This document shows, piece by piece, positions 13,084 to 50,457 of a DNA stretch of 64,000 bases. Position 1 is the stretch's first letter, and the number at the start of each line of letters is the position of its first letter. Made by a program: the position numbers and the translations under genes. The stretch is from Oligoflexia bacterium (GTDB lineage Bacteria > Bdellovibrionota > UBA1018 > CAIPTA01), in contig JAMLID010000015.1 in NCBI GenBank assembly GCA_023954355.1, forward strand, positions 1 to 64,000, in the 5' to 3' direction. The notes under the pieces are model-generated. The model made no database searches. It was not told the origin of the DNA and was given only the letters and a program-made list of their open reading frames with translations.

Positions 13084-13163
13084 AGAGCTCCTCCTTGAGC
13101 AAATTGAATATTAGGCTAAGTTTAGGATATCTTTGCAGAGCATAAAGAGCGAGTTAGTTTTTT

Positions 13164-13218: not shown

Positions 13219-13286
13219 AATATACGCCTTACGGTATAAAATTACGCCTCACATTAACCACCTGCAATATTTTTTACTCTCTCTTA

Positions 13287-13315
13287 TTGACATACCGGAT
13301 AAAAATCTCTAATTT
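13287..13315 (+). promoter_or_regulatory. Probable promoter of the L,D-transpeptidase operon
   Basis: Perfect -35 TTGACA at 13287-13292, a 17-bp spacer and a weak -10 TAATTT at 13310-13315. The ATG at 13353 has a GGGGGA ribosome site. Confidence 0.5.
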
Positions 13316-13352
13316 GCATCGCATCACAACTTAAATCTTTGGGGGATGTCAA

Positions 13353-34824: not shown

Positions 34825-35362
34825 GCTCTAAGGACTGTATGAATTTATTTACTTCTTTTGGATTTCGTAACTGAATAAAGCGAATATGTTCATACTTCTT
34901 ATCCCTTTTTAACTCTAGATATCGATTTCTCATTTTTTTATAATTTTTAATGCTGTATAAAATAATAGAATTTTTTGAAAAAAAAGACTTTCGAAAGCTT
35001 TCTTTATTGCCTGTGCCTTCCCATAGCTCTTTTTTATGTAATGCTCTTATAAAAGCTCGCTGAAACGCTTGCAGAAATGTTCGAAAAAACGAATAGTCTA
35101 TCCAAACAATCGCTTCTACTCTTTGCCATTTAATATTAAGAGTTCTGTTATAGTTACCATCCAGCACCCATTCACTTCCTTCAATTGCTTTACTAAGCCT
35201 TGAAAAAAAGACCTCATCTTTAGGTTCTTTCCAGTTTGGTTCCCAAAATAGTTTATCCATTTCAAGGTATGGCAATTCTAGTTTTTTTGCGATCAGTTGA
35301 GCTATAGTCGATTTTCCAGATGCGCTAGAGCCAATAACGTTTATTCTTCGACCTATTTTCAA
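34814..35362 (-). CDS. P-loop NTPase, adenylate-kinase-like (FlaR/topology-modulation type)
   Basis: 182 residues with a Walker A loop VIGSSASGKSTIAQLIA at the N-terminus, a nucleotide-kinase layout including LEMDKLFWEPNW, then WVLDGNYNRT and an arginine-rich lid (FRTFLQAFQRAFIRALHKK). This matches the small AAA_17/AAA_18 kinase-like proteins often labelled DNA topology modulation FlaR-related. Phosphate acceptor unknown. It overlaps the glycosyltransferase gene tail to tail by 11 bp. Cytoplasmic. Confidence 0.75.
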   Translation of the reverse strand: MKIGRRINVIGSSASGKSTIAQLIAKKLELPYLEMDKLFWEPNWKEPKDEVFFSRLSKAIEGSEWVLDGNYNRTLNIKWQRVEAIVWIDYSFFRTFLQAFQRAFIRALHKKELWEGTGNKESFRKSFFSKNSIILYSIKNYKKMRNRYLELKRDKKYEHIRFIQLRNPKEVNKFIQSLEPIK

Positions 35363-35495
35363 AATATCTGCCTCTAGCTATTTTTGTGAAAAAGAAAGTA
35401 TTCTTACCATATATAACAATCACACACGCCACCAATTAAAATATTTATTCAGTAATTTCAAATATTTACAGTTTAAATTTTAGTCACCACATTAC

Positions 35496-35524
35496 TTGAC
35501 TTTTTTAGTATGTTTTAATATCCT
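35496..35524 (+). promoter_or_regulatory. Probable promoter of the carboxyltransferase gene
   Basis: TTGACT at 35496-35501, a 17-bp spacer and TATCCT at 35519-35524. It would give a leader of about 45 bases before the ATG at 35575. Confidence 0.5.
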
Positions 35525-35574
35525 GACAGCGCCTGGAGAAGCATCATTTCTTCTTATTTTGGGCTAGAATAAAC

Positions 35575-37182
35575 ATGCCGTTATTCGAAATGCGAGACGT
35601 TAGAAATACGAAGGACCCCATGAAGAATACGCCAGAACTATCTCTACTATCCGCTGCAAATAAACCAACTGAACACTGGCTCTCTGTTCGCATTTCAGAG
35701 CATCGATTTTTATCTTGTCTATCTCATTTATTTACTAGTGATGAACTTGAGATTTTTTCTCCTGATAATGAAACCTTCGATAGAATTCAGTCTAATGGAA
35801 TCATTGTAGGAATAGGAGAAATCGAAGGAAAAAAAGTAGGTTTCTTGTATAACGACTTTCGAGTCAATGGTGGTGCCTTTTCTATTTCTGCATCACAAAA
35901 AGCGAATCAGTTTTTTACCAAAATCAAAGAATCTCACATCCCTTTAGTTATGGCTTTTCAATCCATTGGTGTTGGCATCATGGAAGGTAGAAACGTATTT
36001 ATGGATTCATTTGCCACAATGCCATCACTCTTTGACTTACGAGAAAAGAATATCCCTATATTCAGCGTGGCACTTGGACGCTGTCTTGGGCTAAGCTCTA
36101 TTCTATACCAAATGGGACATATGAGAATCGCTGTAAGTGAAAAATCTAGCTTCAATCTTACAGGGCCAGAAGTGATCCGCTTATTCTTCGGAAACGACTC
36201 AAATTTCGATATAGAGTCTTCAGCAGAAAAACAAATAGAAGAAAATGACCTTGTACAAGATATTGTACAAACACCTGAAATAGCATTTGCAAAAATCAAA
36301 GCAGTATTAAGTTTTTTATTTTCTCAATCACAAAGTGGAAATCACAATTTAAGAACACACGAGTCGTTTGGAGAACATCCAGAGATTAGTAACTTATGTA
36401 AATCAGAAGAAAAAATTCAAGAAGTTTTAAAACAAGTAGGTGAATCAAGTCTAGAGGTCTTTGATCAACTAAACCCAGTTGTTAGAACTTTTTTAGTAAA
36501 ACGTGACCAAAAAACAATTGGTGTTTTTATTAATCCCCCAGGACATACAAACAATTTAATTTCTCTAAACACACTAGAAAAATACCAGGCAGCTCTATCA
36601 CTTTTCAAAGCCCTAGGTATACCAATCATCAGCTTTTTGGACACACCAGGGATTGACCCTAGATTCTCACAACAATCACAAGACATTATTCGCTCCATCG
36701 TATCTGTTGGAAAAAGAATCATTCAATACCCACATGGACATATGGGATTCACTCTTGGCCGATGCTTTGGTGGAGCGACCACACTAGCTTTTCCTAAAAA
36801 CTTTCGCTCACTACGGTGCTTTGCTGTTAAAGGCTGCCAATTCGGAATAATGAGCGAATCAATTTTAGAACAAATCCTTGCAAACTCACCTCGACTGCTA
36901 GAAAAACGGCAAGAAATCAAAAAGAGTGAAAAAGATGATTTCCAAGATCTCATTGATAGCGGCGTAATTGATGGCTTAATTGAATTTGAAGAAATTGGAA
37001 AGCAAGTAGAGGTTTTTCTATATCAGGCAGAAGAACTTAACATGCACGAAGAAGAGCACAAGCCGCGAGCCCCCCTCCACCAGCAGAAATCAAGAGAACA
37101 AAACTTCCCTCGCTTACGCCCACGTTATCGTAAAGATGAGAAAGAGCAATCCCTACACTTGCCCCCGAAGTATTCCCAGTAA
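35575..37182 (+). CDS. Two-domain carboxyltransferase-like protein (malonate decarboxylase/acyl-CoA carboxylase type)
   Basis: 535 residues with two crotonase-like halves. The first (about 65-245) has GIGEIEGKKVGFLYNDFRVN and SSFNLTGPEVIRLFFG, close to the beta subunit of biotin-independent malonate decarboxylase. The second (about 305-470) has IPIISFLDTPGIDP and HMGFTLGRCFGGATTLAF, like carboxyltransferase C halves. No biotin carboxylase or biotinyl carrier lies nearby. It probably supplies or decarboxylates malonyl units for the adjacent KAS III genes. The ATG at 35620, with AAGGA upstream, is an alternative start. The last 49 residues are basic, low-complexity and antisense to the KAS III gene, probably a read-through tail. 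Confidence 0.75.
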   Translation: MPLFEMRDVRNTKDPMKNTPELSLLSAANKPTEHWLSVRISEHRFLSCLSHLFTSDELEIFSPDNETFDRIQSNGIIVGIGEIEGKKVGFLYNDFRVNGGAFSISASQKANQFFTKIKESHIPLVMAFQSIGVGIMEGRNVFMDSFATMPSLFDLREKNIPIFSVALGRCLGLSSILYQMGHMRIAVSEKSSFNLTGPEVIRLFFGNDSNFDIESSAEKQIEENDLVQDIVQTPEIAFAKIKAVLSFLFSQSQSGNHNLRTHESFGEHPEISNLCKSEEKIQEVLKQVGESSLEVFDQLNPVVRTFLVKRDQKTIGVFINPPGHTNNLISLNTLEKYQAALSLFKALGIPIISFLDTPGIDPRFSQQSQDIIRSIVSVGKRIIQYPHGHMGFTLGRCFGGATTLAFPKNFRSLRCFAVKGCQFGIMSESILEQILANSPRLLEKRQEIKKSEKDDFQDLIDSGVIDGLIEFEEIGKQVEVFLYQAEELNMHEEEHKPRAPLHQQKSREQNFPRLRPRYRKDEKEQSLHLPPKYSQ

Positions 37183-38047
37183 ACTGTACAGTTTCAACGA
37201 CCTTGTTTTGAGGTACATTTAATCTTCTTGTAACATCTCTTACTAGATGTAAGTTTGCCTGATGAGGCACAATCCATGAAATATCATCTAGTGTCTTACC
37301 AATTCTATTCATAAAAATCGTAGCACATTCTGCCATGCCTTCAGCGGCTTTAATGAAAAGTGTTGCTCCTTTTTTCATCTTTAAATACTGATCTTCTTCT
37401 GCTTTCATCTCATGATAAGGCATGCGTGAACCACCTGCTTGAATGGCAATAATGTCTGCAACACTCCCCTCTGAAAATGTCTGAGATGCAATATACTCAA
37501 AACAGGCATCACTTGCATTTAGCGAAATAATACAAGAAGCCGCACCATCACCAAAAAGAGCTGTTGCCCCTAAATCATCTTTTGCTAAAAATTTTGATCT
37601 AATTTCAGATGCAATTAAAAGCTGATCCTCTTCTGTAGCTACACAAAACTGTGAACATGCATGTAGTCCAGTCACAAACCCTGCACAAGCCGCAGTTAAA
37701 TCCACTGCACCTATGTTCTCTAAACCCAATCTATGCTGAACTAATGGGGCCGTAGGTGGGGTAGGATAATCGCCAGAAATAGTAGCTAAAACTAAATTTC
37801 TGATTTTTTCTTTTTGCTCTGGATACTTAGTAAAAAGTTTTTTTGCCGTTGCATCTGCTAAATCAGAACAAGATTCATTCTCCTTTACCCAATGCCTACT
37901 TTGAATACCTGTTCTATGCTCTATCCAAGAAGCTCGAATATCTCTTCCCATCCATCTTACTAAATCTTCGTTAGATACTTTTTTTTCAGGCAAACATGCC
38001 ACTGGTCCACGAATAAAAATTTTTTTATTCGGTTTATGAAAGCTCAT
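37037..38047 (-). CDS. 3-oxoacyl-ACP synthase III (FabH-like), first copy
   Basis: 336 residues of KAS III type. The full triad is visible: C121 in LTAACAGF, H262 in IVPHQANLH, N292 in FTGNTSGAS; the C-terminal SAGGGGLAACALL is conserved. KAS III condenses an acyl-CoA with malonyl-ACP by Claisen condensation. It overlaps the upstream SDR gene by 4 bp (ATGA), which itself overlaps the ACP gene, so ACP, SDR and KAS III are translationally coupled. This is not the usual fab cluster order and a second KAS III sits nearby, which points to secondary lipid synthesis rather than housekeeping. Its 3' end overlaps the convergent carboxyltransferase gene by 146 bp. Confidence 0.9.
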   Translation of the reverse strand: MSFHKPNKKIFIRGPVACLPEKKVSNEDLVRWMGRDIRASWIEHRTGIQSRHWVKENESCSDLADATAKKLFTKYPEQKEKIRNLVLATISGDYPTPPTAPLVQHRLGLENIGAVDLTAACAGFVTGLHACSQFCVATEEDQLLIASEIRSKFLAKDDLGATALFGDGAASCIISLNASDACFEYIASQTFSEGSVADIIAIQAGGSRMPYHEMKAEEDQYLKMKKGATLFIKAAEGMAECATIFMNRIGKTLDDISWIVPHQANLHLVRDVTRRLNVPQNKVVETVQFTGNTSGASVGIALSHLYDNVGVSEGSFVLLISAGGGGLAACALLRAC

Positions 38048-38793
38048 ACCCCTAGCAGCCCTTCTGAACGCAATAAAGGTAAGCCACCAGAGACGGTAAC
38101 AACTGATCCATTCATATATGTGGTCTCTGATAAGAGTGGATCAGTAGCTTCTGCGATTTGGTCAGGATATCCCAACATTCTTGCAGGAACAATTTTTTCT
38201 ACTTGATCTAAGTAATGAGATCTTTTCCAGAATTTTTTTGTTCGCTCTGTGGCAATTACTCCAGGACGTAAAATATTTGAAAATATATTTAAAGGTCCAT
38301 AATCAACGGCTAAGTTAAAAAACAAACCTTCCATAGCAGATTTACTTGCACAGTAATAAGGAAATCTACTAGTTCCTTGAGACGCAGACAAAGAAGAAAT
38401 AAAAAGCAAACGTCCAAATTTTTTTTCTATCATACCTTTAAGAACAGCTTCTAATAATCTTATGTTCCCATTAATATTTGTTTGAAGATATTTTTCACCT
38501 TCGGACAAGCTCCATTCATGAAATTTTCTTAACTTTATGTTTCTCGATGCCGCATTTAAAATTAAAATATCAAATGAAGCAGACTCAATTTCATTAAGAT
38601 TAGCTGTGGGATTCTCTAAATCATAGACAAACCCTTTTACGTTTAAATCTAACTCTTCTTTATATTTTTTTAAGGTCGAATCTAAGCTACTAGCAGTAGA
38701 GGATGTAATGAAAACTTCATCTCCTAATTGCTTTCTTCTTTCCACTATAGATTGAGCTATTTCAGATGACCCTCCAGTAATTAAAACCTTCAT
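38044..38793 (-). CDS. Short-chain dehydrogenase/reductase, FabG-like
   Basis: 249 residues. N-terminal cofactor loop VLITGGSSEIAQSI, the LNAAS strand (usual NAG replaced by NAA), catalytic Ser in FISSLSASQG, and Y147-x3-K151 in YYCASKSAMEG. The arrangement fits an NADPH-dependent 3-oxoacyl-ACP reductase acting on the KAS III product carried by the neighbouring ACP. Overlaps both neighbours by 4 bp. Cytoplasmic. True substrate unknown. Confidence 0.88.
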   Translation of the reverse strand: MKVLITGGSSEIAQSIVERRKQLGDEVFITSSTASSLDSTLKKYKEELDLNVKGFVYDLENPTANLNEIESASFDILILNAASRNIKLRKFHEWSLSEGEKYLQTNINGNIRLLEAVLKGMIEKKFGRLLFISSLSASQGTSRFPYYCASKSAMEGLFFNLAVDYGPLNIFSNILRPGVIATERTKKFWKRSHYLDQVEKIVPARMLGYPDQIAEATDPLLSETTYMNGSVVTVSGGLPLLRSEGLLGV

Positions 38794-39020
38794 TTTGCTC
38801 CCAAAGATATAATCAATTTTTCAATTGCCAAAATACTCAAAAAAGACTCTTCATCAACTTTATTACCAGGAATCTTAATAGAGAATTCATTTTCAAGTGC
38901 AGAAATAGATAATACGATCAGTAAACTATCGAACCCATAATCAGCTAGAGCCTCATCATCATTTTCAGGAACAGACGGTAACCCTACTGAAAGTAAACAT
39001 TTTTTTATTCTTTCTTTCAC
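38790..39020 (-). CDS. Acyl carrier protein
   Basis: 76 residues starting with GTG. The phosphopantetheine site is YGFDSLL, Ser at residue 32, instead of the DSL-preceding LGxDSL of housekeeping ACPs. Four-helix ACP length and acidic middle are typical (VPENDDEALADYG). It is the first gene of the ACP-SDR-KAS III set and would carry the growing acyl chain as a thioester. No evident ribosome site before the GTG, so expression may depend on upstream translation or another start. Confidence 0.85.
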   Translation of the reverse strand: MKERIKKCLLSVGLPSVPENDDEALADYGFDSLLIVLSISALENEFSIKIPGNKVDEESFLSILAIEKLIISLGAK

Positions 39021-39173
39021 TGAAAAATTATTTCATGATTCTCTCGTTTCACTAAGAAAAATCATTACACCGCACTGAGCTGCGTGCCTACCACTAGATT
39101 ATAGGTATTTTATAACAATTCGCAGATCGTAAGCTGCCATCCTACAAATGCACTCTGAGCTCGAAAAGACTCT

Positions 39174-40457
39174 TTAAACTATTTTTTTTGAATTTTTAAG
39201 CGTCTCTTTAAGTTTTTTACGTAAAAGCTTACCGTTTGCTGTTTTTGGTAACTCTTCTACCTGGTAATACTCTTGTGGGATTTTATGTCCTGATAATTTT
39301 GTTTTTAAACATGCTAAAAGTTCTGATTTTTTTATTGCTTGTTTTAGAACCAATAAAGCTTTTATTTTTGTACCATAAAGTGCATCTTCTTCTACATAGA
39401 TGGCCACATCATCTACTTGTGAAATGTGATTGAGAGCCTCTTCTATTTCTATTGGGCTTACTCTTTCACCACCAATATTAAATATATCATCTTCACGGCC
39501 TAATATATATACGAGTTGATCTTCTGTGATTTTCGCTAAATCTCCGGTTCTCAACCATCCTTCATAGATTTTTTCTTTCGTCAGATTGTCATCACCTACG
39601 TAACCCAACATCACTTGTTTACCACTCACCTCTAAAATACTCTCAGCATTTACTCGTACATTTAGCCCTTTCACGGGATAACCAACACTACCCTCCTCTA
39701 AAAACTTTTTGCTTTTAGATGATAATGATAAAACTCTAGGAGAACATTCCGTTAATCCATAATTATTGTAAATGACAGCACCACTGAAATGAGACAGCAA
39801 ACGATTGCGTAAATCCAATGGCAACGGCGCACCAGCAGATATTACATGAGTAACATTTAAACAGTTTTTTGAATCTGTAAGACGTAAAATTGCTTCCCAG
39901 TGAGAGGGAACTCCGCTATACATTCCTCGAGCTTTTCCCTCTATAAAATCATTTCTTAGATCTAGAAATTTTCCATAAATGACGGTTTCTATCCCTACAA
40001 ACAAGGCTGGTAATAGCTGACCAAACAAACCATAAGAATAGGATAGAGATAAAAACAATCCCTGCTGCGTAGTTCGAGAAAACTCTAAAGATTCTACGAC
40101 TGCTTCGATATTGGCCAATATATTTTCACGTGATAATTCTACGCCTTTAGGCGCACCTGTGCTTCCAGAAGTAAAAACAACAACTGCGGTATTCTCTCTC
40201 AATGGCTTTTTTAAAACCTCTAATCTCTGATTTTTTTCTTTTTCTGATAAGCCTTCGCTAAATATGCAAACGGGCACTTTCATTTTCCAAAAAGCTAAAA
40301 ACTCAACAATAAAATCTACTGAGTTTGATGCGGTTAATATTTTATTTGTGCTTAATGATTCGGTTTTTTTAATAACAGATTGTGTTAATTCATCATAGGT
40401 AAGTGAGCCCCACTCCCCTCTTAGTGCAATTCCGGATTTATTTTCCCAAAAATCCAT
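39174..40457 (-). CDS. Acyl-AMP ligase (ANL superfamily)
   Basis: 427 residues, compact for an ANL enzyme (usual 500-550). The adenylation motifs are all present: VVFTSGSTGAPKGVELS (P-loop), YNNYGLTECSPRV, GWLRTGDLAK, GREDDIFNIGGERVSP, and C-terminal PKTANGKLLRKKL with the catalytic lysine. The short N-terminal region explains the size. It probably loads a fatty or aryl acid onto the ACP or CoA as starter for the KAS III enzymes. It lies 153 bp upstream of the ACP gene on the same strand. GGAGG is only one base from the ATG, so the exact start is uncertain. Confidence 0.9.
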   Translation of the reverse strand: MDFWENKSGIALRGEWGSLTYDELTQSVIKKTESLSTNKILTASNSVDFIVEFLAFWKMKVPVCIFSEGLSEKEKNQRLEVLKKPLRENTAVVVFTSGSTGAPKGVELSRENILANIEAVVESLEFSRTTQQGLFLSLSYSYGLFGQLLPALFVGIETVIYGKFLDLRNDFIEGKARGMYSGVPSHWEAILRLTDSKNCLNVTHVISAGAPLPLDLRNRLLSHFSGAVIYNNYGLTECSPRVLSLSSKSKKFLEEGSVGYPVKGLNVRVNAESILEVSGKQVMLGYVGDDNLTKEKIYEGWLRTGDLAKITEDQLVYILGREDDIFNIGGERVSPIEIEEALNHISQVDDVAIYVEEDALYGTKIKALLVLKQAIKKSELLACLKTKLSGHKIPQEYYQVEELPKTANGKLLRKKLKETLKNSKKIV

Positions 40458-40549
40458 GCCTCCATATTGTCTGACTTACTTAAAAAAATCAAACTACACG
40501 CACGCGTGTGGCTATGGCATTCGACTAAAGCACTTGGTAGAATTTTCTT

Positions 40550-41590
40550 ATGAAAATATTAAAACCGAACTTATTGATACGAATAGAAGGCGCTTCTCGT
40601 TCTTGGCCCGATAAAGAACCAATTTCTAATCATGAAATATTAGCCAATCACCCAGAAACCAAAGATAAGCCTGAAGCCGTTCTTCAGGAGTTTGGCGAGA
40701 GAATTTATCGTGGCTATGGTTTTCGAAAACGCTACATGACTCGACTACCTTGGAAAAAAGCAGATCCCACAAAAGAAGAAAATTCTGAATCTCTATCGAT
40801 TAAGGCAATTAAAAAAATTTTTTCCAAAAAGAAAACCAAAAAACCAGATGCATTTATCCTCGGTAGCACTACAACAAGAAGATACACAGGCTCACAAGCC
40901 ACATCAGCGCTTGCTCCTTTTGACTTAGAAATACCTGCTTACGAAATTAAAGCCGGCTGCTCAACATCTTTGGCCTCTCTACATTTAGCACAAGCCCTCA
41001 TGAAGCAAGGCTACGAAACTGTATTAGTTTCATGCGCAGAAACGCTCTCTAAAGTAGCACATCCAGAAATTCGCGAAACTTGGTTTGGATTAGCGGATGG
41101 TGGTGCCGCCCTTCTTCTACATAAAGTTAAATCAAAGGGTCATTTTAAAATTTTACGCTCTACTTACTCAACTGATGGCAAATTAGTAGACCTATATACA
41201 ACTCCGGGTGAGCTCCCTCCCAACATTCAAACAATAGAAGAACATGGTTTTTCTTTAGTAGGCGATGGAAGCAAACTAAAAGACGCAGCTAAGATTCGTT
41301 ATATGCAAATGATCAATGGCCTCTTAAGTAATAAAGAAAAAAAATCGATTCGCTGGATTGTGCCCCATCAAGTGAATCGAGCTCTCACAGAAGAAGTTAT
41401 TCGTGAAAGTGGACTAAAGGGTACCGTATTATGGGATGCTGAAGATTTTGGAAACATTGGTGGAGCCTCTGTATTATTTTCTTTTGCAAAAGCCATAGAA
41501 GAAAATCGGTTTAAAAAAAATGACCTTATCTTTTTTATGAGCGTAGGTGGTGGGCTTTCATTTGCAGCACAACTATGGAAGAAACTTTAA
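40550..41590 (+). CDS. 3-oxoacyl-ACP synthase III-like enzyme, second diverged copy
   Basis: 346 residues. The KAS III triad is intact: C137 in EIKAGCSTSLASL, H273 in IVPHQVNRAL, N302 in FGNIGGAS; the C-terminal SVGGGLSFAAQL closes the fold. The N-terminal 100 residues are unusual, with a basic loop (KKIFSKKKTKKP) and a YGFRKRYMTRLP segment. It is only distantly like the copy at 37037, so the two probably do different condensations, perhaps chain initiation against chain joining as in OleA-like or alkyl-ketone pathways. It is divergent from the acyl-AMP ligase gene. Confidence 0.85.
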   Translation: MKILKPNLLIRIEGASRSWPDKEPISNHEILANHPETKDKPEAVLQEFGERIYRGYGFRKRYMTRLPWKKADPTKEENSESLSIKAIKKIFSKKKTKKPDAFILGSTTTRRYTGSQATSALAPFDLEIPAYEIKAGCSTSLASLHLAQALMKQGYETVLVSCAETLSKVAHPEIRETWFGLADGGAALLLHKVKSKGHFKILRSTYSTDGKLVDLYTTPGELPPNIQTIEEHGFSLVGDGSKLKDAAKIRYMQMINGLLSNKEKKSIRWIVPHQVNRALTEEVIRESGLKGTVLWDAEDFGNIGGASVLFSFAKAIEENRFKKNDLIFFMSVGGGLSFAAQLWKKL

Positions 41591-41616
41591 TAAATCTTTA
41601 CTTACGGCTTTCGCAC

Positions 41617-42300
41617 TTAAGATTCGCTCATTTCACCATCATGCATTTCAAATCGTCTTTTTACGCGATTCACCAATGTATGATCGTGAGTAGAAAATAA
41701 AAAAGTCACACCAAATTTTTGATTGAGTTCCTCAAAAAGCTCAATCAACTGTAGCGCAGTTTTTGAATCTAAGTTTGCTGTTGGTTCATCGGCAAAAATA
41801 ATATCAGGCTTTGTACAAAGGGCTCTTGCTACCGCAACTCTTTGCTGCTGCCCACCAGAAAGCTCAGTTGGGTAACGATGAAAGTAATTTTTCAACCCTA
41901 CAGCGATAAGTGCATCTTCTGCCTGCTTTCGTGCTTTGCTTGGCGATTCACCTCGGATAATACACGTATATTCTGCGTTCTCTACTGCTGTAAGAACTGG
42001 AAACAAATTATAAGATTGAAAAATAAATCCAATGCGATTTCTTCTCAGCTTACACAGGTCTGCCTGAGACAATCCGGTGGTTTTTTCTCCTCCAATATAT
42101 ACTTGACCTTTTGTTGGTTGGTCTAAACCTGCCGCTAGATTTAAAACCGTAGATTTACCGCTACCAGATGGACCAATAAGCGCCGCAAAATCTCCTCTTT
42201 CAACTTTTAAGGAAAGAGATTTGACTGCCCGCACAGGAGGACTACCAGGAAATGTTTTATTTACGTTTTTAAACTCTAAAACGGCTTCAGATTTTCCCAT
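41617..42300 (-). CDS. ABC transporter ATPase, LolD/MacB type
   Basis: 227 residues: Walker A LIGPSGSGKSTVLNLAAG, Q-loop in FIFQSYNLFPVLTA, signature ELSGGQQQRVAVARAL, Walker B IIFADEPTANLD, and H-loop STHDH. Typical length for LolD/MacB/FtsE-like ATPases that power mechanotransmission ABC systems. Encoded divergently from its presumed partner permease (42386), a split arrangement. With the LolA-like carrier and outer-membrane barrel nearby it should drive transfer of a hydrophobic product from the inner membrane. Confidence 0.93.
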   Translation of the reverse strand: MGKSEAVLEFKNVNKTFPGSPPVRAVKSLSLKVERGDFAALIGPSGSGKSTVLNLAAGLDQPTKGQVYIGGEKTTGLSQADLCKLRRNRIGFIFQSYNLFPVLTAVENAEYTCIIRGESPSKARKQAEDALIAVGLKNYFHRYPTELSGGQQQRVAVARALCTKPDIIFADEPTANLDSKTALQLIELFEELNQKFGVTFLFSTHDHTLVNRVKRRFEMHDGEMSES

Positions 42301-42348
42301 AAAAAAATTCTAATGCGGAAGATAAGTTTTAACAAATACTTCCTTTGC

Positions 42349-42377
42349 TTGCTGCATCTACTAGATGCACATATAAT
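42349..42377 (+). promoter_or_regulatory. Promoter with palindromic operator for the export genes
   Basis: -35 TTGCTG 42349-42354, a 17-bp spacer and consensus -10 TATAAT 42372-42377. The 17-bp dyad TGCATCTA-C-TAGATGCA at 42353-42369 fills the spacer, the classical repressor position. Predicted transcription start at about 42384 is two bases from the ATG at 42386, so the message would be almost leaderless; no Shine-Dalgarno sequence is present, in agreement. Confidence 0.65.
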
Positions 42378-42385
42378 TTAGGCCA

Positions 42386-43624
42386 ATGTCATTACTGCTT
42401 AGAATTGCTACCAGAAACCTGTTTCGTAACTTTCGTCGCTCAGCCATAACAATGCTTACTATTTCTTTTGGGTTAGCAGTCATTCTATGGCTACAGTGCG
42501 TTTTAGAAGGCAGAAATCGTCATATTATTGAATCTATTACGACTTCATACACGGGCAACCTGCAGCTATTTCATAAAAATTATTTAGAGGACCGACTCAT
42601 TAATCTTTGGTTCAGCCCTGATAGAAATCTAATTGAAAGTACTCTTCCAAAGGGCACTTATTCAGCAGAGCGCGTACACTTGCCCTCGTTAGTTTCCAGT
42701 GGTGAAAACTCTGTTCCTATTTTACTAGAAGGTATAGAACCCGCAAAAGAAGCAGAAGTAACTAATGTTCGTAAAAATCTAATCGCTGGAAAATACCTTG
42801 AAGACGACCCTTCAGTAGATTGTGAGTCAAGGCAAATATATATCGGCAAAAAGCTCTCAGACCTATTAAAAGTTTCAGTTGGGAATAAAATCGTTATCCT
42901 TGCACAAGCCGCAGATGGCTCTCTTGGGAATGACCTTTTTCGTATTAGCGGAATTTTTGATTCAGGCTCACCAGACTTTGATAAATCTTTTGCTTTTGCA
43001 CCAATCAATTGTGTGAAAAAAGTAGGAGCCCTTTACGGCATTCATGAAATTAGCATCCGTATTCCCAACCTCAGCGATGAGCCTAAAATAAAATCTGCAC
43101 TTAAGAAAATTTTGCCAGAAAATATTGAGATTAGCTCTTGGAGAGAAAGCTTACCCAGTATGGCAACAATGGTTAAATATAACGATGCTACACTTGTTAT
43201 GATTTCTTCCATGTTGTTAATTGTTATTACATTAGGAATTGTAAACACTCTACTAATGAGCGTTTTTGAAAGAACACGAGAGTTCGGTGTGATGATTTCA
43301 CTTGGAACAACTCCAACTCAAGTGAGAATGTTGATCGTATTTGAATGTTTAGTGTTAGGAGTAATCTCTTCTATACTTGGTATCATTATTGGGTTTGTCG
43401 CTGTAATTTATCACCAAAAATACGGTTTTGATTTAAGGCCATTTTTAGGAGATCACTCTTCTCTTGATCAATTTCGCCTCGATTTAACTATTTATCCAGT
43501 ATTTCAATTTATTCCCTTCTTAAAGGCAGTGCTTTGGATGATGTTTTTTATTATATTAGCAGGAGTCTACCCAGCATGGAGGGCTTCTAAACTTGAACCA
43601 GTTGAAGCAATGAGGTCTGTATGA
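42386..43624 (+). CDS. ABC transporter permease, LolC/LolE/MacB (FtsX) type
   Basis: 412 residues: one N-terminal membrane helix (LRIATRNLFRNFRRSAITML then FGLAVIL), a periplasmic MacB-like domain of about 200 residues, then three membrane helices with the FtsX phrase EFGVMISLGTTPTQVR and the final YPAWRASKLEPVEAMRSV. This is the classic four-helix mechanotransmission permease. Family members move lipoproteins, lipids or peptides to periplasmic partners rather than across the membrane. Its stop overlaps the next gene start (ATGATGA), and the partner ATPase is divergent. Confidence 0.92.
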   Translation: MSLLLRIATRNLFRNFRRSAITMLTISFGLAVILWLQCVLEGRNRHIIESITTSYTGNLQLFHKNYLEDRLINLWFSPDRNLIESTLPKGTYSAERVHLPSLVSSGENSVPILLEGIEPAKEAEVTNVRKNLIAGKYLEDDPSVDCESRQIYIGKKLSDLLKVSVGNKIVILAQAADGSLGNDLFRISGIFDSGSPDFDKSFAFAPINCVKKVGALYGIHEISIRIPNLSDEPKIKSALKKILPENIEISSWRESLPSMATMVKYNDATLVMISSMLLIVITLGIVNTLLMSVFERTREFGVMISLGTTPTQVRMLIVFECLVLGVISSILGIIIGFVAVIYHQKYGFDLRPFLGDHSSLDQFRLDLTIYPVFQFIPFLKAVLWMMFFIILAGVYPAWRASKLEPVEAMRSV

Positions 43625-44421
43625 TGAAAACCGTAGCTTTAGTAAGTATTTTTATTACATCTTTATCGTTCGCAGCGAAACCAATAAATACAAAAAAAAC
43701 TACCACTAAGAGCAATAAAGCAACCTCTTCTCTAGCCACAACTCTTATAGAAAAATCAGAAGCGCATATACGTGGAAAAAGTTTCCGCGGAAAAATGACC
43801 ATGAAAGTTGAAAATAATGGTCAAACAAGAACCCTAGTCTTAAGAAATTGGTCTATAGGAAATACAAAATCTTTCGTAAAAATTTTAACACCTAAGAAAG
43901 ACCGCGACACTGGAAACTTAAGAATTGATATGAACTTATGGCAGTACCTGCCGAATGTAGAAAGAGTTATAAAAATTCCTCCAAGCCTGATGTTACAAAG
44001 CTGGATGGGTTCTGACTTTACCAATGACGATTTAGTAAAGACAAGCTCTTTAAGTAGAGATTATACTCATAAAATTCTCGCCAATGAAAAATATGGTACT
44101 TATAAAGCAGTAAAAATTGAATGCATACCAAAACCAAATGCACCTATTGTTTGGGGTAAAGTAATTGCATGGGTAAGAGAGGGTGATGGAGTTCCTTTAA
44201 AGCAAGAATTTTACTCTGAAAACGGTGAACTGCTGAAAGTTATGGAAGGTAGCGAAGTAAAAACTTTTGGCAAGAGAACTATTCCCACAGTTCTTGTAAT
44301 GAAAAACTTAAAGCGTGAAAACTCTAAAACTACTTTAACTTATGATGAAGTGCATTTTGATGAAAATATTCCCAATAATATTTTCACTCAAGAAAATCTT
44401 AGAAGCCCTGTAAAGGATTGA
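43621..44421 (+). CDS. LolA-like periplasmic carrier (outer membrane lipoprotein-sorting family)
   Basis: 266 residues with a signal peptide (hydrophobic 4-16, SFAAK). The mature part matches the LolA-like family PF17131: RGKSFRGKMTMKVENNG, NLRIDMNLWQYLPNVERVIKI, SWMGSDFTNDDLVK and a VIAWVREGDGVPL strand. The open half-barrel fold binds acyl chains. Following the FtsX-type permease with overlap, it probably receives a lipid product and shuttles it to the outer membrane, rather than serving general lipoprotein sorting. Confidence 0.88.
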   Translation: MMKTVALVSIFITSLSFAAKPINTKKTTTKSNKATSSLATTLIEKSEAHIRGKSFRGKMTMKVENNGQTRTLVLRNWSIGNTKSFVKILTPKKDRDTGNLRIDMNLWQYLPNVERVIKIPPSLMLQSWMGSDFTNDDLVKTSSLSRDYTHKILANEKYGTYKAVKIECIPKPNAPIVWGKVIAWVREGDGVPLKQEFYSENGELLKVMEGSEVKTFGKRTIPTVLVMKNLKRENSKTTLTYDEVHFDENIPNNIFTQENLRSPVKD

Positions 44422-44422
44422 T

Positions 44423-45493
44423 TTGGAGTTTTTTCTATACTTTCTCTCCTTTTTCTTTAATTTCACCTATGGTGTGCTTCTTCCGATAATCCCACACCTC
44501 GACACAGAACATGCTGGCTGGGCATTTACCGCTTTTCTTTTAGCAAAGCTTGTATGGTTTATCCCTGCAGGTTTTATAAGCGACTATATTGGACACAAAA
44601 AGGGATTATTACTAGCGCTCTTTGCACAAAGCATCGCCTTAATTTTCATAGCAGAATTCTCTTCTCTACCTTGGTTAGGTAGAATATTTGAAGGTATTGC
44701 CTTAGCTCAAGGAACATTATCTACCTTTGCCTTTTTAAGAGTAATAAAAAAAGAAGCCCACAGTTTTCAAAAATCAATTTCTCATCTGCTTGCTCTAGGT
44801 GGCCTAGGGATGATTTTTGGTCCAACAATAGGATATATCGCTCTAACATGGAACGCGAACTTGATTCTCTGGATATTAGCAATATCAAGCGCTCTACTAT
44901 TCCTATTTTGCTTTTTTCTAAAAGAACTAAAAAAAATAAATCAAACTCAAAGATCCGAAAAAAACATTCAAGGCCGCGAATTCTACTGCCTAGTTATTGG
45001 ACTAACTGCCGCAAAAGCGATCGGAGTTGGCTGGGAACCTAATCTAGCATGGTGGGCACAGAGTTCTTTACATCTCTCTGCAACGTTGGCTGGTCTAAGC
45101 TTTTTAATTCTAGGTCTTTCTTTTGTTCTAGGTAGTATATTCGCCAATAAAATTTTTATCCCAATTGTGTTCTTAGGCTTTATGGCACTAGAGCTCAGCC
45201 TGGGGGGCATCAAATGGCTTTGGTGGCCTGCTATGTTTTCTTTCGGCTTGTGGTATGGGATATACATTACTATTTCCGTGGCAAAACTAGGATGGAGTGA
45301 ACCAGATCGTATAGGCAAGCATAATGCTATATGGATGCTTTTAACCGATGTTCCTATGACTTTTATACCAGCTATTTTATGGAACTGGAGAGAAATGCAC
45401 TACCAAATCCCCAGAGCCTCTTTAGGTTTTATTCTCTTATTTATTAGTATGGTTTTTTTATTTGCTAGCCAGTGGAGAAAAAAACTTATTTAG
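44423..45493 (+). CDS. MFS transporter in the lipid locus
   Basis: 356 residues starting with TTG; AAGGA lies six bases upstream. About eleven hydrophobic helices and the loop DYIGHKKGLLL after helix 2 mark a major facilitator permease. It follows the LolA-like gene by 1 bp, so it is part of the export operon. It may export a precursor or take up a starter acid. Its 3' end overlaps the convergent acyltransferase gene by 8 bp. Confidence 0.82.
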   Translation: MEFFLYFLSFFFNFTYGVLLPIIPHLDTEHAGWAFTAFLLAKLVWFIPAGFISDYIGHKKGLLLALFAQSIALIFIAEFSSLPWLGRIFEGIALAQGTLSTFAFLRVIKKEAHSFQKSISHLLALGGLGMIFGPTIGYIALTWNANLILWILAISSALLFLFCFFLKELKKINQTQRSEKNIQGREFYCLVIGLTAAKAIGVGWEPNLAWWAQSSLHLSATLAGLSFLILGLSFVLGSIFANKIFIPIVFLGFMALELSLGGIKWLWWPAMFSFGLWYGIYITISVAKLGWSEPDRIGKHNAIWMLLTDVPMTFIPAILWNWREMHYQIPRASLGFILLFISMVFLFASQWRKKLI

Positions 45494-46205
45494 CACTACG
45501 CTCAGGATTCCCATGCTCCCACTTAAAGTTATCCAGTTTTGATCCCTCAGTAATATTTTCTGAAATTAAATTACCCATTCCCACCCATGCTCCAGCACCA
45601 ATTTTTGTCTTTGGTCCTAAAATACAGTTCATACCAATGAATACATTTTCACCAATCTCTACAGGAGACACAAATAAGCGGTCGCCAACAAAGGTGTGAC
45701 AAGCTATGTGCACACCTTCCGATACTGTTGACCCTTTACCTATTGTAATCATAGAGAGGTCTACAAAACTTACTCCTATAGAAGTATTCACACCATAAGC
45801 AATCTTCATTCCGAGAGCACGCCAATGTAAATACTTTGTTAAATAAAATGCATTTAACAACGGAGAGATACCTGCAATGATAGAAGACCGAGACAATCCC
45901 AAATGACAAAACCAAGTCAAAGTTCCTTTATTTATTCCCATTGGATACACGCCTCTTTTTTGCTTCGGAATAAACAAACGTAGAGCCCATAAAACAAATA
46001 TAAAACTAAAAATTAATAAAAAAGGAGCAAGCAAAGAATAAAGAAAGAATTTTGCTGCGGAGAAAGTCCAAATACTATGTAAATAAGTCAGAGCAATCGA
46101 CCACGCAACTATGCCAGGCCCCAAAGACAGAAAAATGCCCAAAAAGTCGATAATTCCATATGCATACCAAGGTAATCCTGTAGATACTCTCGCTTTTTTT
46201 TCCAT
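45486..46205 (-). CDS. Membrane-anchored hexapeptide-repeat acyltransferase
   Basis: About 239 residues from the ATG at 46205, which has AGGA upstream; an ATG at 46262 lies inside the divergent GH3 gene and lacks a site. Two membrane segments (about 15-40 and 50-75) are followed by a left-handed beta-helix: GKGSTVSEGVHIACHTFVGD, VEIGENVFIGMNCILGPKTK, IGAGAWVGMGNLI. It resembles the C-terminal beta-helix domains of Pls/PosA-type peptide synthetases. It probably acylates, or acetylates, a membrane-bound product of the locus. Confidence 0.75.
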   Translation of the reverse strand: MEKKARVSTGLPWYAYGIIDFLGIFLSLGPGIVAWSIALTYLHSIWTFSAAKFFLYSLLAPFLLIFSFIFVLWALRLFIPKQKRGVYPMGINKGTLTWFCHLGLSRSSIIAGISPLLNAFYLTKYLHWRALGMKIAYGVNTSIGVSFVDLSMITIGKGSTVSEGVHIACHTFVGDRLFVSPVEIGENVFIGMNCILGPKTKIGAGAWVGMGNLISENITEGSKLDNFKWEHGNPERSAK

Positions 46206-46251
46206 TTTTCTTTTCCTAAATCTATTTTTCTGAAAAAATTGTATCATTCTT

Positions 46252-47751
46252 ATGGCATTCACGACAAAAATCGTTCAATCTCTAACTTATTTTCCTTATC
46301 GATCATTCGTTCGAGACTGTAAAAATCCGGTTGCGGCTAAAGCACGCCTATGGGCTGAAATTAGTCTACTCATTAATAAGGGAGACTTTTGGAAAACTCC
46401 CCACAAAAATCTTGATCAGTTTCCCATCAGCGATTACGAAGACTATCGTCAAACAATAGAAACTGCCTACAAAAATAGCAATATTTGTCCAATCACAGGA
46501 GAACCTATTTTATTCTGGTCTGAAAGTGGTGGAACAACAGGAAAGTCAAAAAAATACCCTATTACAGAAATTTACAAAAAAAGCTTTCAATCCACAACAC
46601 CACCCCTACTACATAGCTTCTGTAAGCGTTTTCCAAAGTTTTTACAAAAACCTGTGCTTTACTTTGCCTCTACCTTACCTGAGAAAATATCGCCTCAAGG
46701 TATCGAGTTAGGATTCATTAGTGGTTATAACTACAGAAATATTCCCCCGCTTCTAGCAAAAAAATACGCCTTTCCCATAGAGGTTTTTAAAGATCGTGAA
46801 ACTTTTTTTCGTTGGGGACCGCTTTATGCTCTTTGCACTGACCTGTCAGCCATGATTGCGATTACTCCCTCTATTATTGAGCAATTCGCAACTGAAATAG
46901 AAAAAAACAAAAACCTATACTTGCGTTGCCTGAAAAATGATAAAGAAGTTCCTGCACACTTACCCAAAATTCATTGCTCTTTAGAAAGACAAAAACTCTT
47001 GGAGCATGAACTATCTATAACCCCTATAGACTTTAGTCGCATATGGCCTTCACTCTCTTTTATTTGCTGTTGGAAATCTGCCACCTGTGGGCTTCAGTTA
47101 CCTAGAATAAATAAGTGGGTTAAAAAGATTCCTATCATTGATGCTACCTACTCTGCAACAGAGGCTTGGATGACGGTGCCTATGGAGACTGAACAAATAG
47201 GTGGCCCTTTTCATCCGAATGCTCTCATTTTAGAGTTTTTTCATTCTGATAAACCTGAAAAAATACTGCAAGCATGGGAACTTGCTATAGGTGAGCAATA
47301 TGAAGTTCTTTTAACTACAAAAATGGGCTTCATTCGGTATAGACTTTACGACATCGTTCGCTGTAATGGTTATTTCCATAAATCTCCTATTTTAGAATTT
47401 GTAGAGAAAGCAGGCAATACCGTAAGCCTGGGACAATGTAGAATTAGTGAAACACATATCTTAGCTTCGCTTGGCTCTCTAGACTTTTCTAATTCTTGGC
47501 TCATTGCTCCAGCAGTAGATGGTAGTGGATTAGTGTTTTATATTGAAACCACTGAAGATCAACTAGAGAAGAAAGTTGCATTGCTTGATCTACAATTACA
47601 AAAAAACAACTCTGACTATGCAGAGGATATACGAGATGGTTTACTAAAACCTATTAGAATTAAAGTGCATTCGGATTATTTTAAAAATTTCGAAACGCAC
47701 GCGCAAAATAAACCAAAAGTTATTCAAAAAAATCCAATTGAAACCATCTAA
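46252..47751 (+). CDS. GH3-family acyl-adenylating enzyme
   Basis: 499 residues of the GH3 family (PF03321), known from plant auxin-amido synthetases and scattered bacterial clusters. Motifs: FWSESGGTTGKSKKYPIT (phosphate-binding loop), ICCWKSATCGLQ, DATYSATEAWMTVP and LLTTKMGFIRYRLYD. Such enzymes adenylate a carboxylic acid and join it to an amine or thiol. With a second adenylating enzyme in the locus (39174), it could conjugate the finished acyl chain with an amino compound. It starts 46 bp from the divergent acyltransferase gene and overlaps the barrel gene tail to tail by 4 bp. Confidence 0.85.
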   Translation: MAFTTKIVQSLTYFPYRSFVRDCKNPVAAKARLWAEISLLINKGDFWKTPHKNLDQFPISDYEDYRQTIETAYKNSNICPITGEPILFWSESGGTTGKSKKYPITEIYKKSFQSTTPPLLHSFCKRFPKFLQKPVLYFASTLPEKISPQGIELGFISGYNYRNIPPLLAKKYAFPIEVFKDRETFFRWGPLYALCTDLSAMIAITPSIIEQFATEIEKNKNLYLRCLKNDKEVPAHLPKIHCSLERQKLLEHELSITPIDFSRIWPSLSFICCWKSATCGLQLPRINKWVKKIPIIDATYSATEAWMTVPMETEQIGGPFHPNALILEFFHSDKPEKILQAWELAIGEQYEVLLTTKMGFIRYRLYDIVRCNGYFHKSPILEFVEKAGNTVSLGQCRISETHILASLGSLDFSNSWLIAPAVDGSGLVFYIETTEDQLEKKVALLDLQLQKNNSDYAEDIRDGLLKPIRIKVHSDYFKNFETHAQNKPKVIQKNPIETI

Positions 47752-48929
47752 TAAGAAACAGTAAGTTGCAAACCTATTTGTGAGGGTGCCCCTATACTCT
47801 GATTTTGCATTACCTTTGGGTACTCAAAAGTTCGTTTTGAAAATTCTGTTCCTGGCTTACCTACCGGAAATCTAACATCCATAGCAATATCCCAATTATC
47901 GCTCAGTGAACGCGATAGTTTTATCATTGGGTAAAAGCTTCCATCTACAAAATTAGTCATCGACGATATATTCAAAAGCCAAAACGAAGTTAACTGAGCA
48001 GATGCCTGAAAAAAACCATATCCCTTTGCTCGCAGCGCTCTAAACCTAGAACTTGTATCTAATGCATAATCAGCTGAGCTTGATTTACCCTTTTCGTAAT
48101 ATAATCCCTCGAACAAAAGTGTCCATATTTCATTTAAGGCATACTCAACACCCACACCAAGCTGAAGCTCTCTTTGTTCTCGTTTGTTATCAAAATCAAT
48201 CCATAAGCTTTCGAGACGTAAAGTTGCACCAAGCAAATCTTTAGCTAAAGCAAAACCAAGAGAATTATTTTCCCACCAACGTGAGGCCATGAGGTGAAAT
48301 TCTATTTCAGGATGATAGGCAATTGCTTCTAACCAACGAACAGCATCATAAGAACGAAAATCTCTACCCTCAATATCTATTGCTTGAAATGCATAAATAT
48401 CTTTTTGATAGCGAATTGTTAATGAGTCTTGGCCATAGATAAAATTTGGACCTGCCGAGTTCGGTAATGGGCGAGAAAATTTATTCCAAATAGGGATCAC
48501 TTTCAGCGTACCGACTCCTATAGGCTTTCTACCGATTTGCATTTCTAAACGCCCTAGATAAGAGGTATATGTAAGTCTTTCAATATCTAAAAGCATTTCT
48601 TGCTTAGATTTGTCTACCACCTTCCACTCTAGATTCATTAATCTTCTTGGACTTTCTACAGTAGCGTAGCCAATGGAATTTGCGCTTTGATCTCTAAAAG
48701 CACTATAAAATGCTCGTAACTCTGGAGTAAGCTCTAGTCTAAAATAAGGATTCGTATATCTGGCGGCATAAGATGTTTTAAAAATGGTTTCAAAGCTTGA
48801 ATCTAGGGTACCGAAGCCTTCATTGGGAAATTCTCGATATCCAGTTTGAAAAAATACATCACCCTTGCCAGAAAAGGTGGCCTGAGAAACCGCAGGTAAC
48901 AAAAATATGAAACAGAAAATCTTAAACAT
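47748..48929 (-). CDS. Outer-membrane beta-barrel protein of the export system
   Basis: 393 residues with a signal peptide (hydrophobic 2-15, SQA). It is dominated by amphipathic strands with aromatic girdles (YFRLELTPELRAFYSAF, LTIRYQKDIYAFQAIDI, WTLLFEGLYYEKG) and ends LQLTVSY, a barrel-terminal strand. It resembles DUF1302-like or alginate-export-like porins that often lie beside LolA-like/FtsX permease genes. It follows the hydroxylase gene by 9 bp. Likely the outer-membrane acceptor or exit pore for the product. Confidence 0.78.
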   Translation of the reverse strand: MFKIFCFIFLLPAVSQATFSGKGDVFFQTGYREFPNEGFGTLDSSFETIFKTSYAARYTNPYFRLELTPELRAFYSAFRDQSANSIGYATVESPRRLMNLEWKVVDKSKQEMLLDIERLTYTSYLGRLEMQIGRKPIGVGTLKVIPIWNKFSRPLPNSAGPNFIYGQDSLTIRYQKDIYAFQAIDIEGRDFRSYDAVRWLEAIAYHPEIEFHLMASRWWENNSLGFALAKDLLGATLRLESLWIDFDNKREQRELQLGVGVEYALNEIWTLLFEGLYYEKGKSSSADYALDTSSRFRALRAKGYGFFQASAQLTSFWLLNISSMTNFVDGSFYPMIKLSRSLSDNWDIAMDVRFPVGKPGTEFSKRTFEYPKVMQNQSIGAPSQIGLQLTVSY

Positions 48930-48938
48930 AAAAATAAC

Positions 48939-49793
48939 CTACCGTTTTTTTCTAATTAATGGATACAGAACAACCTCAAAGAACTGTGTAGGCGTATACG
49001 GATGATCATCTTGTAGCCCTGTCTGTTCAGGTGCAGGTCGATCTTTAGGTAAGTAAAATGTTCCAAATACAAGATCCCAAATGCTCGTAGCTACACCAAA
49101 ATTTTTATCAGCTTCCGCGGCAATAGTTGAATGATGCCATCGATGTAGGTGATTAGTAGAAAAAACATAATTCAAATATTGAAAGTTAAAATTTGCTCTT
49201 GAGTGAGAAAATACCCCTCCAACAGTTACAAATGTTGCCGCTAATAAAACAGCATTAGGATCAAAGCCAAGCATTAAAATAAAAGGGAAAGCAATTGCAT
49301 TGCGCAAAAAATAGTCAAAAGGATGTGAGTAAAATGTATTTAAAGAATAAATTTCTTTTACCGAGTGGTGAATAGAATGAAACTTCCATAAAATAGGAAT
49401 TTTGTGTTGAGCAAAGTGTATCCAATAACGAATAAACTCATTCAATAAAAGAGCAACAACTGCTTGAAGCCATAAAGGTCCTAATACACTACTTGAAAAT
49501 AAAACCTTATCCGAAAAAAAGTGAGTTGTAAAAAGAGCTAATAAATATACAACTAAAAGATCACCTATTCCCGCTGTTATAAAAATATTAAATAAACTAA
49601 AGCTAAAATCTCTCCCTACAGGTCTAGCTGGTGCGTTTTGATGAAAAGGTATTTTCGACTCAACAAAAAGATTAAACCCTACCGTCACGACTATTAAAGG
49701 CAAAATAATAAATATTTTAGGCCATGATAAATATACAGCCAACACTGAATACGAAAGAGCAATAAATAAAAAATAGATAAACGAATTTTTCAA
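48939..49793 (-). CDS. Fatty-acid hydroxylase/sterol desaturase family protein
   Basis: 284 residues starting with TTG; GGAG lies seven bases upstream. Several membrane helices and the three histidine clusters of the di-iron family: HFAQHK, HSIHHSVKEIYSLNTFYSHP and HLHRWHHST, ending DLVFGTFYLPKD (PF04116). These integral enzymes hydroxylate or desaturate lipid chains using O2. As first gene of the hydroxylase-barrel pair it probably tailors the lipid made by the KAS III enzymes. Confidence 0.92.
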   Translation of the reverse strand: MKNSFIYFLFIALSYSVLAVYLSWPKIFIILPLIVVTVGFNLFVESKIPFHQNAPARPVGRDFSFSLFNIFITAGIGDLLVVYLLALFTTHFFSDKVLFSSSVLGPLWLQAVVALLLNEFIRYWIHFAQHKIPILWKFHSIHHSVKEIYSLNTFYSHPFDYFLRNAIAFPFILMLGFDPNAVLLAATFVTVGGVFSHSRANFNFQYLNYVFSTNHLHRWHHSTIAAEADKNFGVATSIWDLVFGTFYLPKDRPAPEQTGLQDDHPYTPTQFFEVVLYPLIRKKR

Positions 49794-49822
49794 AATTTTC
49801 TCCAGTAGATAAAATATAATTC

Positions 49823-50116
49823 TTACTTTTTACTCTGACAGTACTTATATAGTACTGGTTGTGAACAACCAGCTAACTTACAATGTTCAGAGTTTTTTAC
49901 TTTTTTATCTTCTTCTCTAATTTTTTCTAGCGAATCACCTTTTTCTTTATATAGACACTTTGTACTTTGTTGGGTCACATCACTCACACAGCATCCACAC
50001 CCACAGGATATATATTCATCAATACTCAAATTTTCTTTTGCACTGATGATTGCTGGATACAGTGTAATCAAAAAAACGAAAATATTTTTTAATCTTCTAA
50101 AATTATTAATAAACAT
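49823..50116 (-). CDS. Small secreted cysteine-rich protein
   Basis: About 97 residues from the ATG at 50116; a TTG at 50128 is an alternative. A signal peptide (FVFLITLYPAIISA) precedes a short mature protein with a dense cysteine cluster ISCGCGCCVSD and further cysteines at TKCLYK, EHCKLAGC and YKYCQ, nine in all. This fits metal binding or a disulfide-knotted peptide. No family recognised. It is 29 bp upstream of the hydroxylase gene on the same strand and may be co-transcribed. Confidence 0.6.
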   Translation of the reverse strand: MFINNFRRLKNIFVFLITLYPAIISAKENLSIDEYISCGCGCCVSDVTQQSTKCLYKEKGDSLEKIREEDKKVKNSEHCKLAGCSQPVLYKYCQSKK

Positions 50117-50181
50117 AAATCTACTCAATTAAACTCCAAAAAATTCATAAAAAGAGTATAACTGAAAGAAAGGAGAGATTC

Positions 50182-50397
50182 ATGAATATAAGTACCAGTA
50201 CGATACTCTGTGGGATTATTTTTGGCTCTCTGGGTCTGTATTTTTTAAAGGTGGGAAAAAGTTTAGCTAAAGTTGACCTACTACTCTACGGTCTAGTTTT
50301 ATTGGTGTATCCATATTTTACTGAAAACGACTGGTTACTTTGGGGGATAGGAACTGTTACTACAGTACTTTGTTTTCGCTCAATTCGACGACCATAG
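50182..50397 (+). CDS. Small two-helix membrane protein
   Basis: 71 residues with an excellent ribosome site (AAAGGAGAG). Hydrophobic segments at about 6-22 and 33-62, separated by a basic loop KVGKSLAKV, and a short basic tail (SIRRP). No family recognised. Divergent from the cysteine-rich gene. Probably an inner-membrane accessory protein. Confidence 0.6.
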   Translation: MNISTSTILCGIIFGSLGLYFLKVGKSLAKVDLLLYGLVLLVYPYFTENDWLLWGIGTVTTVLCFRSIRRP

Positions 50398-50417
50398 CTT
50401 TTCTAAAAATAAAAAAA

Positions 50418-50439
50418 GGGCTTAGCATTCACTAAGCCC
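50418..50439 (-). terminator. Rho-independent terminator for the minus-strand gene at 50458
   Basis: GGGCTTAG 50418-50425 pairs with CTAAGCCC 50432-50439 around a six-base loop. On the minus strand the hairpin is followed by a run of seven T, then ATTTTT. It also lies just after the convergent gene at 50182 and may stop both. Confidence 0.85.
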
Positions 50440-50457
50440 AGTTCGAACTTATGATAA

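Follow-up and report, generated by a model that had tools for sequence, protein, structure and literature searches.

The window analysed here, 64,000 nucleotides of contig C7, belongs to the 3.15 Mb draft genome of an Oligoflexia bacterium from the phylum Bdellovibrionota (G000 in our genome sample). At 35575-49793 it carries 14 genes for lipid synthesis and export. This locus is the Bdellovibrionota variant of a known cluster family, whose Legionella pneumophila member lies in the region to which the polyketide legionellol has been assigned. Judging from gene homology, we put at roughly 60% the probability that it encodes a variant lipid/polyketide pathway of the legionellol type, with a Lol-like export module coupled to it. 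The new part is the module embedded in it, namely a LolD-like ATPase, a LolF-like permease, a LolA-like carrier and a porin-like barrel.

A cluster family and its legionellol-assigned member

The core of the family consists of two 3-oxoacyl-acyl carrier protein synthases III (KAS IIIa and KAS IIIb), an acyl carrier protein (ACP), an acyl-AMP ligase, a short-chain dehydrogenase/reductase (SDR), a hexapeptide acyltransferase, a GH3-family enzyme and a carboxyltransferase-like protein (CT). Across the collection, KAS IIIb matches many Legionella species, Myxococcus, Pyxidicoccus and two Bdellovibrionota metagenome-assembled genomes. Sampled surveys, run at strict thresholds, found it in 5 of 291 genomes of the phylum (window genome included), in 30/45 Legionella genomes and in 9/117 genomes of the myxobacterial order; only 2 of the 321 sampled genomes of Legionella's class had it, both of them from the Legionella set. 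Within the samples searched, relatives of KAS IIIb are restricted to Bdellovibrionota, Legionella and Myxococcaceae, groups in which many members are predatory or live in or on other cells. A search for the same cluster, suggested by a preliminary description of the locus, met it again in four further genomes of the 291, in Legionella and in myxobacteria.

Wherever contig extent permits a view, KAS IIIb, the ligase, ACP, SDR and KAS IIIa stay together, and the hexapeptide enzyme is present in nearly all relatives. In the Legionella and Bdellovibrionota loci they are joined by GH3 and CT, CT being kept in every Bdellovibrionota cluster whose contig extends to its position. Accessory oxidation differs by locus: a hydroxylase in the window, a hydroxylase plus a cytochrome P450 in G229, and a desaturase adjoining the G169 locus. 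The G229 locus (L056/L062, G229:C96) combines a fatty acyl-AMP ligase (FAAL)-type ligase, the P450, a phospholipase-D-like protein and the hydroxylase, and appears intermediate between the Legionella and window types. In L024 and other Myxococcaceae loci (~9240-14440) the order is compact: hexapeptide enzyme, KAS IIIb, ACP, SDR, KAS IIIa, ligase.

Every one of these families is common individually, and the genes could in principle be housekeeping or scattered lipid genes, adjacent by accident. These data refute that reading and leave it a negligible probability. A canonical plsX-fabH-fabG-acpP-fabF operon, with its own FabH, lies elsewhere in the same genome (G000:C56), so that the KAS III/ACP set is not the organism's only housekeeping one, and further KAS III genes exist besides that operon and the cluster. 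In a tree of 53 KAS III proteins, the cluster's KAS IIIa and KAS IIIb form two separate clades, each with a Shimodaira-Hasegawa-like approximate likelihood-ratio (SH-aLRT) support of 100 and each apart from housekeeping FabH. Branches from Bdellovibrionota, Myxococcaceae and Legionella are nested within both clades; the sequences indicate that each KAS III has one common origin across the three phyla. Nor are the homologues scattered in relatives, where the core genes are kept together. Three phyla retain the same gene content and, to a large extent, the same order, so the grouping is not due to chance. The preliminary description was right in seeing a genuine lipid/polyketide-type gene cluster here, with a recurring core and intact motifs, separate from housekeeping fatty-acid synthesis. 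Elsewhere in the genome (L065 4878-7348; G000:C1 ~22.9-25.3 kb), a further KAS III gene is directly followed by an AMP ligase, with an SDR gene alongside, a possible second lipid locus.

The same description had called the locus undescribed, which is not supported: each of its core genes has a homologue in the L. pneumophila locus that adjoins lpg2222. Legionellol, an unusual polyketide, has been connected with sliding motility and may act as a surfactant; the secondary literature available to us assigns it to lpg2223-41. In a Legionella genome (G326; L059/L060), a gene nearly identical to PDB entry 6deh is found ~9 kb from the cluster; the title of that entry ('TPR repeat protein, protein-protein interaction') is the same name as that of LPG2222, and lpg2222 is published as lpnE. 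The published labels of lpg2228 (3-oxoacyl-ACP synthase III) and lpg2233 (ACP) agree with the gene order seen in L. pneumophila, give or take one gene. By synteny and similarity, then, the counterpart is the locus beside lpg2222, inside lpg2223-41, and its legionellol assignment rests on the secondary source together with this synteny. Expression of lpg2228 is reported to rise at a late stage in amoebae, and the gene is in a LetS-regulated list in water. We also considered whether the Legionella carriers might be the autofluorescent species and abandoned this, since non-fluorescent species are among the carriers.

Identities between window and L. pneumophila proteins are 50% for KAS IIIb, 47% for KAS IIIa, 47% for ACP, 39% for the AMP ligase, 37% for GH3, 41% for the hexapeptide enzyme and ~48-54% for the SDR (Legionella); the fatty-acid hydroxylase family, found in the G229 locus too, reaches 27% and CT 20%. 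In both loci all of these are small, discrete genes. Several points weigh against the legionellol-type reading. The Legionella locus has a FAAL-type ligase, an acyl-CoA dehydrogenase and a second ACP, none of which occurs at 34814-50778 of the window; because they are missing, we file the window as a variant and not as the legionellol pathway itself. CT is no more than 20% identical between the two, Myxococcaceae clusters are without GH3 and CT, and the GH3 sequence does not reveal its substrate. Finally, none of the G169, G229, Legionella and Myxococcaceae clusters has the export genes.

The Lol-like export module

The predicted export module is present as described beforehand, with an ABC ATPase, a LolA-like carrier and a barrel; the label of its permease as simply FtsX-type needs correcting, since the best PDB matches are LolF, LolE and LolC ahead of MacB. 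As the genome holds two further LolC/E-like permeases, the window set is an additional one. A structure prediction for the barrel, which has no Pfam match, gave an all-beta barrel (AlphaFold2, alignment of seven sequences, mean predicted local distance difference test (pLDDT) 73.8). In Foldseek the model comes closest to AlgE, OccAB2 and OccK/OccK7, members of a barrel type with an 18-strand fold, at template-modelling (TM) scores of 0.5-0.57 for a model of pLDDT ~74. The barrel occurs in 7 of 58 relatives, with a close LolA-like gene nearby in 7/7 (Fisher p ~3e-8, uncorrected for kinship). Distant barrel matches in G040 and G048 have no LolA/FtsX/ABC neighbours and were not taken as instances of the module. 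A literature search on PF17131/LolA-like-FtsX lipid export and on Bdellovibrio KAS III clusters found nothing on the window locus.

How firmly is this quartet (ABC, FtsX, LolA, barrel) tied to the cluster? Three genomes, those of the window, G001 and G014, have the genes for the ABC ATPase, permease, carrier and major facilitator superfamily (MFS) protein interspersed among the core genes, in the stretch from KAS IIIb to the acyltransferase, whereas the G169 cluster has the order KAS IIIb-acyltransferase-GH3 without export genes. Because other clusters lack them too, the coupling of exporter and cargo rests mainly on adjacency in three genomes. The full quartet is found also in G006, G023, G070, G089, G150, G208 and G252. 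The module is thus portable, and lipid genes are frequently, though not invariably, close by. That it stands alone or beside other lipid genes supports Lol-like lipid export and weakens its exclusive dedication to this cluster. The 'dedicated' route postulated earlier is only partly supported: the interleaving in three genomes favours it, whereas quartets in relatives without the cluster and clusters without the quartet speak against exclusiveness.

Two accounts of the quartet deserve to be weighed, each of which we consider quite possible while giving it distinctly less than even odds. It may be unrelated to the lipid pathway, serving for example lipoprotein or general export, and have merely been inserted alongside. 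Its lack of lipid-synthesis neighbours in G089, G150, G208 and G252, the acetyl-CoA-synthetase-like gene that is its sole such neighbour in G006, and its absence from the clusters listed above all favour such an insertion. Speaking against it are the interleaving inside the cluster in three genomes and the company the quartet keeps elsewhere: it adjoins a KAS III/OleD-like/AMP-ligase cluster in G023 and encloses a GH3-like gene in G070, while LolA and barrel genes lie by a hydroxylase and a desaturase in G031. The other account, held tentatively, is that the quartet might be a distinct outer-membrane export machine for free (non-lipoprotein) lipids, variously paired within the phylum and here bringing a legionellol-like amidated hydroxy-lipid to the surface.

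Some details of these loci may be recorded. In G023:C6 (L075 3528-14592), the neighbouring cluster has a PRK07204-type KAS III, an OleD-like reductase and a TIGR02304 ligase, along with beta-lactamase fold and ATP-grasp proteins. In G070:C24 (L105 9158-15602), a genome without KAS IIIb, the GH3-like gene (11178-12863) lies between the quartet's barrel and ABC genes and is 21% identical to the window GH3 (E 4e-14). L107 and L110 carry versions with two FtsX permeases (LolC/E-like) plus LolA, ABC and barrel, with no lipid-synthesis genes nearby.

Genes of the locus, proposed biosynthesis and rival pathways

All genes named in the preliminary description are present, with Pfam family matches well above chance for all but the barrel (table). 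Both KAS III enzymes have complete Cys-His-Asn triads, as do 16/16 and 17/17 of the cluster copies compared, and the DSL motif of ACP is kept in every cluster compared. The acyl-AMP ligase has intact P-loop, TGD and catalytic Lys motifs. Nucleotide-binding motifs I-III of GH3, as defined in PMC12493201, are likewise intact (SGGTTGKSK, YSATE and RYRLYD), and the closest PDB structures are the plant enzymes GH3.12/JAR1. CT is strongly divergent: its first oxyanion-hole motif reads CLGL in the window and TLGA in Legionella against the canonical CAGGA, and its identity is 37-41% to the cluster CTs of G014 and G169 and 28-33% to that of G229. The 3' ends of the CT and KAS IIIa genes overlap, by 146 bp in the window (37037-37182), 86 bp in L022 (12841-12926) and 51 bp in L055 (4367-4417); the CT tail within the overlap falls outside the conserved alignment, as if an ancestral stop had been lost.

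Predicted genes of the locus at 35575-49793 of the window
Product	Coordinates	Strand	Matches and features
Divergent two-domain carboxyltransferase-like protein (CT)	35575..37182	+	PF01039 E 1.2e-23; conserved part to ~37033
KAS IIIa (3-oxoacyl-ACP synthase III)	37037..38047	-	PF08541/PF08545 E 1e-22/1e-10; triad C121-H262-N292
SDR ketoreductase, FabG-like	38044..38793	-	PF00106 E 2.8e-30; Tyr-x3-Lys and Ser motif aligned
Acyl carrier protein (ACP)	38790..39020	-	PF00550 E 2.8e-7; GFDSL attachment site
Short acyl-AMP ligase, ANL superfamily; presumed acyl-ACP loading enzyme	39174..40457	-	PF00501 E 1.2e-32, PF13193 E 5.6e-11
KAS IIIb, diagnostic enzyme of the cluster family	40550..41590	+	PF08541/PF08545 E 6.4e-18/3e-16; triad C137-H273-N302
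LolD-like ABC ATPase	41617..42300	-	PF00005 E 2e-35; LolD among best PDB matches
LolF/LolC/E-like permease, FtsX and MacB_PCD	42386..43624	+	FtsX E 3e-18 (Pfam)
LolA-like periplasmic carrier	43621..44421	+	PF17131 (LolA_like) E 2.8e-55; PDB LolA-superfamily 3buu, 9tp6
MFS transporter	44423..45493	+	PF07690 E 7.1e-19
Membrane-anchored hexapeptide acyltransferase	45486..46262	-	PF00132 E 3e-8; partial match to Pls/PosA terminal domain TIGR02353
GH3-family acyl acid amido synthetase	46252..47751	+	PF03321/PF23571/PF23572; N-terminal/middle E 1e-20/1e-15
Outer-membrane beta-barrel, apparent signal peptide	47748..48929	-	predicted all-beta model
Di-iron fatty-acid hydroxylase family protein	48939..49793	-	PF04116 (FA_hydroxylase) E 3e-27

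From this gene content, the product is probably a hydroxylated, GH3-amidated lipid; the hydroxylated and/or amide-linked product foreseen earlier fits the GH3, SDR and hydroxylase genes. In the legionellol-type scheme that we propose, the acyl-AMP ligase would activate a fatty acid and load it onto the cluster ACP. The two KAS III enzymes would catalyse decarboxylative condensations; for one of these the CT-like protein probably provides or modifies the unit used. The beta-keto group would be reduced by the SDR. As neither a dehydratase nor an enoyl reductase is present in the locus, the hydroxyls would remain on the chain. The released hydroxy-acid would then be joined by GH3 to an amino acid or amine, a step proposed because a bacterial GH3 makes N-acyl ornithine (PMC12493201). 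The hexapeptide enzyme could O-acylate the amidated hydroxy-acid, and the di-iron hydroxylase add a further hydroxyl. For export, the MFS protein may flip the amphiphile; the LolF/LolD-like pair would take it and hand it over to the LolA-like carrier, and the barrel would be the point at which it reaches or crosses the outer membrane.

The same enzymes can be read in other ways. An amino-lipid pathway of the OlsH kind, in which GH3 joins a 3-hydroxy acyl chain to ornithine or another amino acid, would yield a structural membrane lipid and not a secreted surfactant; the hexapeptide enzyme would serve as the O-acyltransferase and an OlsE-like enzyme as the hydroxylase. We consider this pathway, including these two roles, unlikely. 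The intact GH3 motifs, the precedent of the bacterial GH3 OlsH (PMC12493201) and an export machinery leading to the outer membrane are all in its favour. OlsE (NF052566) is indeed the nearest NCBIfam model to the hydroxylase, but at 109.4 bits the match stays far below the cut-off of 475. Moreover, Pfam finds no OlsI-type alpha/beta hydrolase in the locus, two KAS III enzymes plus CT exceed the needs of an ornithine lipid, and the Myxococcaceae clusters do without GH3.

Still less probable, in our view, is a mycolate-like logic, in which the CT-like protein would carboxylate an acyl chain and a KAS III condense it with a second, ACP-bound chain; reduction by the SDR would then leave a beta-hydroxy acid with an alpha branch. 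The mycolate-type set AccD4-FadD32-Pks13-CmrA follows a comparable logic, paralleled here by CT, acyl-AMP ligase, ACP, condensing enzyme and SDR, and CT retention in the Bdellovibrionota clusters agrees with it. Set against this are the altered oxyanion-hole motif, the absence of a biotin carboxylase near CT and the Myxococcaceae clusters that lack CT. OleABCD, DarB/StlD and aryl-polyene assignments were rejected, with no NCBIfam model near its cut-off; the DarB/StlD models NF053539/NF005293 score 25 and 37 bits against cut-offs of 550 and 450. A relation to anti-phage defence was likewise set aside, as the three proteins tried gave no PADLOC match.

Significance and comparison with known systems

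On the legionellol-type reading, the little-studied legionellol locus becomes one member of a larger cluster family in Legionella, Myxococcaceae and Bdellovibrionota, and the comparison reduces the minimal core to a pair of KAS III enzymes, ACP, ligase, SDR and acyltransferase. The reading would also place a bacterial GH3 amide synthetase in such a pathway, a family given a lipid function only recently (PMC12493201). The linked LolA/FtsX/ABC/barrel quartet, in turn, is a candidate for the export of lipids to the surface that lends itself to testing, and such export is a standing question in the biology of the Gram-negative envelope.

Among described pathways, the OlsH pathway of Singulisphaera acidiphila (PMC12493201) shares a bacterial GH3 with three nucleotide-binding motifs and, possibly, an N-acyl amino acid product; the window differs in lacking the OlsI alpha/beta hydrolase and an OlsG methyltransferase, and in having its GH3 inside a KAS III/ACP cluster. 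The Ole (OleABCD), Dar/Stl and aryl-polyene systems likewise pair condensing enzymes, of the KAS III or another type, with ligases and reductases in accessory roles, although the window reaches none of their models' cut-offs. Compared with the L. pneumophila legionellol locus, the window adds the LolD/LolF/LolA-like proteins and a large barrel. These resemble LolCDE/LolDF-LolA lipoprotein export in a permease and ATPase closest to LolF/LolE/LolC and LolD and in a carrier of the LolA superfamily. Unlike that system, however, the window set has a single permease gene, a PF17131 carrier and a linked porin-like barrel instead of LolB, and it is linked to lipid synthesis genes.

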